Positions 44,669 through 45,565 of a stretch of DNA of 64,000 nucleotides are shown here, one piece after another (within the stretch, counting starts at the first letter, position 1; each line of letters begins with the position of its first letter). The notes beneath the pieces were generated by a model. That model worked only from the letters and a program-made list of their open reading frames with translations, made no database searches and had not been told where the DNA came from. A program made the position numbers and the translations under genes. The stretch spans positions 1,860,001 to 1,924,000 of the forward strand of contig NZ_JAMXLE010000001.1 of the NCBI RefSeq assembly GCF_024055895.1, read 5' to 3'. This DNA is from Rhizobium sp. L1K21 (lineage in GTDB: Bacteria; Pseudomonadota; Alphaproteobacteria; Rhizobiales; Rhizobiaceae).

Positions 44669-45037
44669 TTACAGTACTTCAGGAGCCAGCGAGATGATCT
44701 TCATGTGGCTCTTGGCGCGGAGTTCGCGCGGAACCGGTCCGAAGATACGGGTGCCGATGGGCTCTTTCTTGTTGTCAACGAGAACAGCAGCATTGGTGTC
44801 GAAACGGATCACGCTGCCATCGGGACGACGGATGTCCTTGGCTGTGCGCACGACAACAGCCTTCATCACGTCACCCTTCTTAACGCGGCCGCGCGGAATA
44901 GCTTCCTTGACGGAGACAACGATAATGTCGCCGATGGAAGCGTACTTGCGCTTGGAGCCGCCCAGCACCTTGATGCACATGACACGACGTGCGCCGGAAT
45001 TATCGGCCACGTCGAGGTTAGTCTGCATCTGAATCAT
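44669..45037 (-). CDS. rplN: 50S ribosomal protein L14
   Basis: 122 residues. [20 protein letters not shown] and [20 protein letters not shown] are the L14 blocks; L14 forms bridge B8 and is the RsfS binding site. It is separated from rpsQ by an unusually long 294-bp gap, so it may begin a separately controlled segment. Confidence 0.97.
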
Positions 45038-45235
45038 GTCAGGTCGCCTTCTATTATTGACTGGAGCGGTTGGATCCCATCAGGGCCCCTACTCCAGCTT
45101 ATGGACTGGATTCAAAACGCGTGCCTCGAACCGAAACCGAATTTCGGCCCACAAACACACCTTGTAGTTTCGCGCGGGAAAGATCTTGCCAAGGTGGTTT
45201 CCCCAAAAAGGACCTGCCTCGCGCGGAAAAGCAAA

Positions 45236-45323
45236 AGAACGCCCGATTCCCGAGCGTTCTGCGCTGTTAGCGCTGCTTCATACAGGTTTTTTCCCCAAAC
45301 GCAAGTGGTTCAGGGGAAAAACC
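45236..45323 (-). promoter_or_regulatory. Stacked hairpins and terminator-like element in the rpsQ-rplN gap
   Basis: After rpsQ the transcribed strand reads a stem with GGTTTTTTCCCC pairing GGGGAAAAACC (one bulge; 45285-45323), then a GCGCT/AGCGC stem, then AGAACGC / GCGTTCT (45260-45236) followed by TTTT. The last looks like a weak intrinsic terminator or attenuator. The rest of the gap, down to 45038, has no gene and no convincing promoter. Confidence 0.5.
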
Positions 45324-45331
45324 CGAAAAAG

Positions 45332-45565
45332 TCACTGGGCGGCAACAACCGTCCAGCGCTTGTCTTTGGAGATCGGCGCGCATTCCTCGATGGATACGGT
45401 ATCGCCAACCTTGTACTGGTTGTTCTCGTCGTGCGCCTTATACTTCTTCGAACGACGAACAGTCTTCTGCATCAACGGGTGAGCGAAACGACGCTCAACG
45501 CGGACAACAACCGTCTTGTCATTCTGGTCGCTTACGACAACACCCTGCAAAATACGTTTAGGCAT
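45332..45565 (-). CDS. rpsQ: 30S ribosomal protein S17
   Basis: 77 residues. [40 protein letters not shown] and [18 protein letters not shown] are diagnostic. It binds 16S rRNA helix 11 early in assembly. It is followed by a 294-bp hairpin-rich gap before rplN. Confidence 0.97.

Follow-up and report, generated by a model that had tools for sequence, protein, structure and literature searches.

The 294-nt stretch between rpsQ and rplN in the window (64,000 nt, part of one contig of a 4.3-Mb genome) is best explained as a feedback leader that lies ahead of the spc operon's first gene and that ribosomal protein S8 would bind at hairpins carrying an S8-type recognition core. Judging from the sequences compared, we put the probability of this reading at about two in three. 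The gap occupies positions 45038-45331 of the minus strand, between the open reading frames of rpsQ (S17, the last gene of the S10 operon, 45332-45565, minus strand) and rplN (L14, the first gene of the spc operon, 44669-45037, minus strand). The downstream order on this strand, with genes named from the encoded proteins, is rplN, rplX, rplE, rpsN, rpsH and further genes. A preliminary description of this DNA had singled out the gap as rich in hairpins, and the three structures it listed are indeed present: a bulged stem at 45284-45324, a small stem at 45261-45273 and a terminator-like stem at 45236-45260.

The same description held that rpsQ and rplN lie a few bases apart in most bacteria. 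In the class, the gap has a median of 25 nt and none of 60 loci (one per family) reaches 200 nt; in E. coli K-12 the gap is 164 nt long. Forty further loci from the order have a median of 72.5 nt, with two at 200 nt or more. The length of 294 nt is thus unusual within the class, though not everywhere. Folding of the minus strand of the gap gives a structure more stable than all 200 shuffled sequences (z −3.91); the fold of the plus strand is less marked (z −2.06, with 6 of 200 shuffles equally good). A search of the whole 64-kb window against Rfam 15 returned no match at the gathering score, and the three matches in the region of the gap are all far under their cut-offs.

As the preliminary description had required of its reading, the gap is conserved in close relatives: five congeners align across the whole rpsQ-rplN stretch at 82%, and the compensatory changes in the hairpins are described below. 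A search of the family with a relative's gap as the query matched 110 of 394 genomes, representing 24 of 109 genera, some of these matches spanning only the last ~37 nt. Gaps taken from 97 of the 110 matching genomes yielded 94 distinct long gaps from 24 genera. Since the query itself contains both of the hairpins referred to below as boxes C and D, this set is biased toward them. At 20 other loci from relatives, 14 of them in the family and 6 in other parts of the order, the gap measures between 33 and 206 nt. We considered and rejected a repeat element, because the gap query found one place, or its pieces, in most matching genomes; in at least one genome (G274) pieces of the match lie on two contigs. 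Many draft contigs start about 5-6 kb before rplN, and our guess is that a tuf duplication upstream of the S10 genes may be behind these breaks.

In a tree built from rplN and rpsQ (75 rows), the rows with long gaps require 3 changes, against 17.9 in shuffles. The long-gap module is therefore clustered on the tree and may have arisen once; many of the branches have weak support, and the row of the window stood apart from its congeners. Nested among the long-gap genera is a locus (L011) whose gap is 68 nt long; the promoter and H2 described below are gone from it, and it keeps the hairpin letters AGGU...UAACC, with U-U at 598-640.

Just 3' of rpsQ lies an inverted repeat, H1 (45284-45324, minus strand), the bulged stem mentioned above. 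Its arms change between genera yet stay complementary (23 genera, with g100 left out): the mean duplex energy is −18.6 kcal/mol within genomes and −12.2 kcal/mol when arms are swapped between them, and none of 500 swaps equalled the real pairing. In the 13 loci from 6 genera that have another hairpin between rpsQ and H1, the mean is −10.2 kcal/mol, compared with −20.5 kcal/mol in the other 81 loci. Since H1 is weaker where another hairpin stands upstream of it, we think that it probably marks the 3' end of the S10 transcript. Having no U-tract, H1 does not qualify as an intrinsic terminator.

According to the preliminary description the gap has no clear promoter. A plain consensus scan indeed found none, but comparison of the relatives reveals a conserved one, a predicted σ70-type spc promoter of the form CTTGCG-N17-TATGAA that overlaps H1. 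Its −35 element, CTTGCG (45300-45305, minus strand), is located in the apical part of H1, and its −10 element, TATGAA (45277-45282, minus strand), within CTGTATGAAGCA. CTTGC is found in 70 of the 94 loci and CTTG in 83, CTGTATGAAGCA in 71, and in the register set by our script the spacing between the two elements is identical in 86. The motif occurs once in the genome. The published S. meliloti consensus, CTTGAC-N17-CTATAT (PMC2873474), has the same 17-nt spacing, and by sequence the predicted promoter appears to conform to it, the −10 element TATGAA fitting loosely. A start codon within TGTATGAAG was rejected: no Shine-Dalgarno sequence was seen by eye, and the −10 variants TATGTA and TAAGAA, which are still promoter-like, destroy the ATG. 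We infer that the spc transcript starts near 45270. It is highly probable that the gap is the boundary of the S10 and spc operons, with a promoter of its own.

Close to the predicted 5' end is the small stem GCGC-TAACA-GCGC (45261-45273, minus strand). It is followed by H2 (45227-45260, minus strand), which consists of the terminator-like stem at 45236-45260 and the stretch TTTTGCTTTT and was identified by scan and covariation. H2 begins at least 7 nt beyond the −10 region and is present in 87 of the 89 loci scanned, five g100 loci having been missed by the pattern; the scan did not find it in either of the two g113 loci. Its arms covary (−17.4 versus −13.8 kcal/mol with swapped arms, 0 of 500, 22 genera), and 75 of the 87 loci have at least 6 T within the 10 nt scored. 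With a GC-rich stem and a U-tract, H2 has the features of an intrinsic terminator; its role may be to end the S10 transcript, to attenuate transcription or to stabilise the 5' end.

An attenuator was among the three functions that the preliminary description offered for the gap, together with a protein-binding leader and a small RNA. For H2 alone it is possible, though we hold this tentatively and well below even odds: H2 would then attenuate spc transcription between the promoter and the first gene, which is compatible with the S8 reading. In favour of this are the U-rich tail, the covarying arms and, in 87 of the 89 loci scanned, a position a short way downstream of the predicted start. The same hairpin may, however, be just the S10 terminator, and H2 is missing by scan in g113 and by eye in g100, both of which have another hairpin upstream of the promoter, that of g100 being a U-rich terminator. 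Other lineages with a hairpin upstream of the promoter retain H2. A further point against attenuation is that inspection by eye revealed no conserved antiterminator pairing. A free-standing small RNA made of the promoter and H2 is very improbable and has no evidence of its own. The terminator-like hairpin does end about 50 nt after the −10 element, but the product would be ~40 nt of nearly all stem, it is not in Rfam, and conservation runs on past it into the rplN leader. The g100 loci (L111, L112 and L114-L116) make a contrast case to the common arrangement: a U-rich terminator precedes the promoter, H1 is very weak and no H2 was seen, so that terminator, promoter and box D (by eye) follow each other in textbook order.

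The protein-binding leader is the option that fits best, with S8, one of the proteins that the preliminary description had named, as the best candidate, and the evidence for it comes from the two hairpins nearest to rplN. Box D (45060-45100, minus strand), a hairpin with covarying stems, carries the S8-type core AGGG (45087-45090) / CAACC (45068-45072). It ends 7 nt before the Shine-Dalgarno region of rplN, AGAAGGCGACC (45042-45052, minus strand), whose purine-rich part is AGAAGG and whose columns are nearly invariant in 62 aligned loci. The box D core is found in 88 of the 94 long gaps and in all 24 genera, and in all 88 loci base 640 is 34-36 nt upstream of the ATG. The six loci that have lost the core belong to g63 (five) and g62 (one).

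Covariation of box D was analyzed in an alignment (A2) of 62 of the 94 long-gap sequences, with a maximum of four per genus; L072, L073 and L113, which the pattern missed, and L098, which has a long loop, were left out. The 14 pairs are 93.7% intact, and 46 cells are changed on both sides, compared with 17.2 in shuffles (0 of 500). The signal comes from both helices flanking the core, is also seen in a 51-row alignment (A3, from which 11 of the 62 sequences were left out, including L067 and L071, which have lost the core), and is abolished when the pairing partner is shifted. The covariance model from relatives that the preliminary description had proposed was built for box D; it has a single match in the genome, the gap itself. 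Searched over the order, it matched 4 of 297 genomes, all of this family, a weak negative given strict filters and 22 candidates per genome, and it found neither of the E. coli S8 sites.

These data bear on a simpler explanation, that of an ordinary operon boundary made of an S10 terminator, an spc promoter and a structured 5' leader to which no protein binds. Its promoter and H1/H2 are well supported, and the corresponding gap of E. coli measures 164 nt and holds the spc promoter of that species. However, the unpaired bases of box D (A and AA) and the GG/CC beside them are the same in 88 of 94 loci, although the surrounding stems undergo compensatory changes. Since a mere stem does not need fixed core bases, we regard the ordinary boundary as unlikely.

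Box C (45172-45224, minus strand) is a hairpin with the core AGGU (45212-45215) / AAACC (45196-45200). Between boxes C and D, this genome and the five congeners have an insert with an inverted repeat (45131-45150, minus strand). The box C core is found in 66 of the 94 long gaps and in 17 genera, its 3' strand being AAACC in 60 sequences and AUACC in six (the five congeners and L076); position 641 is thus A (60) or U (6), and 642 is A. Box C is nearly invariant. Its alignment (A1) comprises 43 of the 66 sequences, with no more than four from any genus, the pattern having missed L078 and L092. Clear covariation is restricted to two apical pairs of the upper helix, the outer stem shows one compensatory change, and in the lower helix a mismatch adjoins the core. 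Two pairings were compared, one with GG(15,16)-CC(61,62) and that of RNAalifold, of which only the second agrees with the S8 core; both contain the covarying UCC/GGA, and the counts are equivocal.

In the genus g45, species with and without box C occur side by side, and L100, L101 and L103 differ in this respect from L079, L083 and L086; this split is a natural pair of one-site and two-site leaders. In another locus, L041 (g73), the 3' half of box C seems to be duplicated, as AGGTCCCGTGGGAAACCACC and then GAGGAAACCACC, so that one 5' strand faces two possible S8-type cores.

The published S8 core consists of A595-(A596-U644) and G597-C643 with U641 and the invariant A642 (PMC4176348). Written in this form, box D is A-GG-G / C-AA-CC. 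The form of box C is A-GG-U / A-AA-CC, with A-UA-CC as the second strand in L076 and the five congeners. The unpaired 595 and the pair 596-644, here A and G-C, are present in 88 of 94 sequences for box D and in 66 of 94 for box C; both boxes also have G597-C643 with any base at 641 and A642 (AA in the 88 box D sequences). Sixty gaps have both cores, 28 have box D alone, six have box C alone and none has neither. Strict core hairpins were detected in 89 of the 94 long gaps, against 7.5 in shuffles. The boxes were counted with patterns that fix most core letters, and strict matches require A642, G597 and C643, so the constancy of these three bases in strict matches follows from the filter.

The core as such is a frequent motif. 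A loose descriptor has 68 matches on the plus strand of the window, and a consensus descriptor in hairpin order has 29 on both window strands, with 9.65 per 64-kb strand in shuffles. Since such matches are common by chance, the case for S8 is built on conservation and position. Predicted folds support the box D core in 71 of 88 local sequences and 49 of 85 whole leaders, the core of the window's own box D reaching a probability of 0.07-0.08. For box C the core pairs never exceed a probability of 0.5 (none of 66 local folds and none of 63 whole leaders), and several of the folds examined favour a competing structure, GGUC/GAUC together with a hairpin GG-AAACCA-CC. When the known E. coli sites were folded in the same way, the core pairs obtained 0.03, 0.05 and 0.98 in helix 21 (h21) of 16S rRNA and 0.14-0.56 in the spc operator. 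Because most of the known h21 core escapes this program too, folding is weak evidence either way.

Could a different ribosomal protein encoded in the operon (L14, L24, L5, L18 or some other) be the ligand of the hairpins, the fit to the S8 core being coincidental? The shared core is short, binding of S8 is a prediction from sequence and box C has a competing fold, all of which leave room for this. But nine core positions fit in two hairpins, position 641 of box C is A or U, four other lineages have a core of this kind in much the same position (below), and the readable 23S of this genome contains no exact AGG-stem-AACC hairpin. We therefore consider another ligand improbable. The exact search also found nothing in the readable rRNA of this genome as a whole, nor in E. 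coli rrnB. A looser match in E. coli 23S rRNA (AAGGUCCC...GGGAAAC) was dropped as a case of rRNA mimicry, since we take these two strands not to be paired with each other in the 23S secondary structure.

The outside scan covered 120 other gaps, 68 of them at least 40 nt long: the 20 loci from relatives and those from 60 of 95 class genomes and 40 of 90 order genomes that had an rplN match. The strict core was present in four of the 120 (shuffle mean 0.86, with one of 200 shuffles reaching at least four) and absent, by the same scan, from the remaining 116. Within the family it is AAGA/UAACU in L024, with base 640 34 nt before the ATG. The other three are from three different families of the order: L132 (AAGU/AAACU, 26 nt), L213 (AGGU/AUACC, 36 nt) and L225 (GGGU/AUACC, 32 nt). 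A second genome (L227) of the family of L132 (f42) has no strict core.

In E. coli, S8 is the known repressor of the spc operon and acts at the third cistron, as set out in the S8 section of a 2024 review (PMC10931766). By the published numbering, the operator at rplE +11 reads AAGU / AAACU. Its 595-598 strand, AAGU, corresponds to AGGU in box C and AGGG in box D, and its 640-644 strand, AAACU, to AAACC and CAACC, so that the sole difference between the core of box C and this operator is the pair 596-644, which is A-U in E. coli and G-C here. Since the E. coli sites have A or U at 641, the A or U of box C fits. As in E. coli, the cores belong to the transcript of the operon that includes the S8 gene; they precede the first cistron, however, and there are often two. 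The order of the strands is also different, 595-598 coming first here and in h21 and 640-644 coming first in the E. coli operator. E. coli h21 (AAGU / AUACU) has the same strand order and core arrangement as the boxes, with other flanking stems and another loop, E. coli 16S rRNA being the only one compared. A core in reverse order was not found near the rplX/rplE junction of the window by a scan that misses the real E. coli site, too. The E. coli rpsQ-rplN stretch (L127) has no match to the consensus core in either order; that scan also misses the rplE operator.

As far as its S8 section goes, the 2024 review regards regulation in B. subtilis and other species, V. cholerae apart, as unknown, and says that no advance has come from phylogenetic studies (PMC10931766). 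Table 1 of a 2020 survey of leaders gives an L2 leader candidate in Alphaproteobacteria (PMC7247131). The leader described here is of the same kind as those in that table, a structured leader of a ribosomal operon; the terms 'uL14', 'uS8', 'rplN' and 'Rhizobi' do not occur in the main text of the survey. A Bordetella mutation upstream of rplN is mentioned in PMC7742992. Among the open-access papers that our searches brought up, none dealt with an S8 site ahead of rplN in these bacteria.

In the S8 reading, H1 and probably also H2 would close the S10 transcript, and the promoter that overlaps H1 would start the spc transcript. The spc leader would then present box C and box D, each with an S8 recognition core. 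S8, the product of the operon's fifth gene, would bind box D (and box C) once it exceeded free 16S rRNA, and the bound protein would block ribosome entry at rplN, whose Shine-Dalgarno region follows box D so closely. The rest of the operon would be reduced along with rplN through translational coupling. In a more speculative version, which we think rather unlikely, the leader would be a two-site sensor in which box C is bistable, adopting the GGUC/GAUC fold without S8 and the S8-core fold with it, and box D guards the ribosome site. The response would be graded or cooperative, possibly feeding back on H2, and either site could be dispensed with while the other remained.

If the S8 reading is true, the leader would act as a brake that lets the cell stop making these proteins when there are enough of them. 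It would provide a concrete, testable S8 operator in Alphaproteobacteria, in which the core known from E. coli is used before a different gene, and the family would hold a natural series of one-site and two-site leaders.
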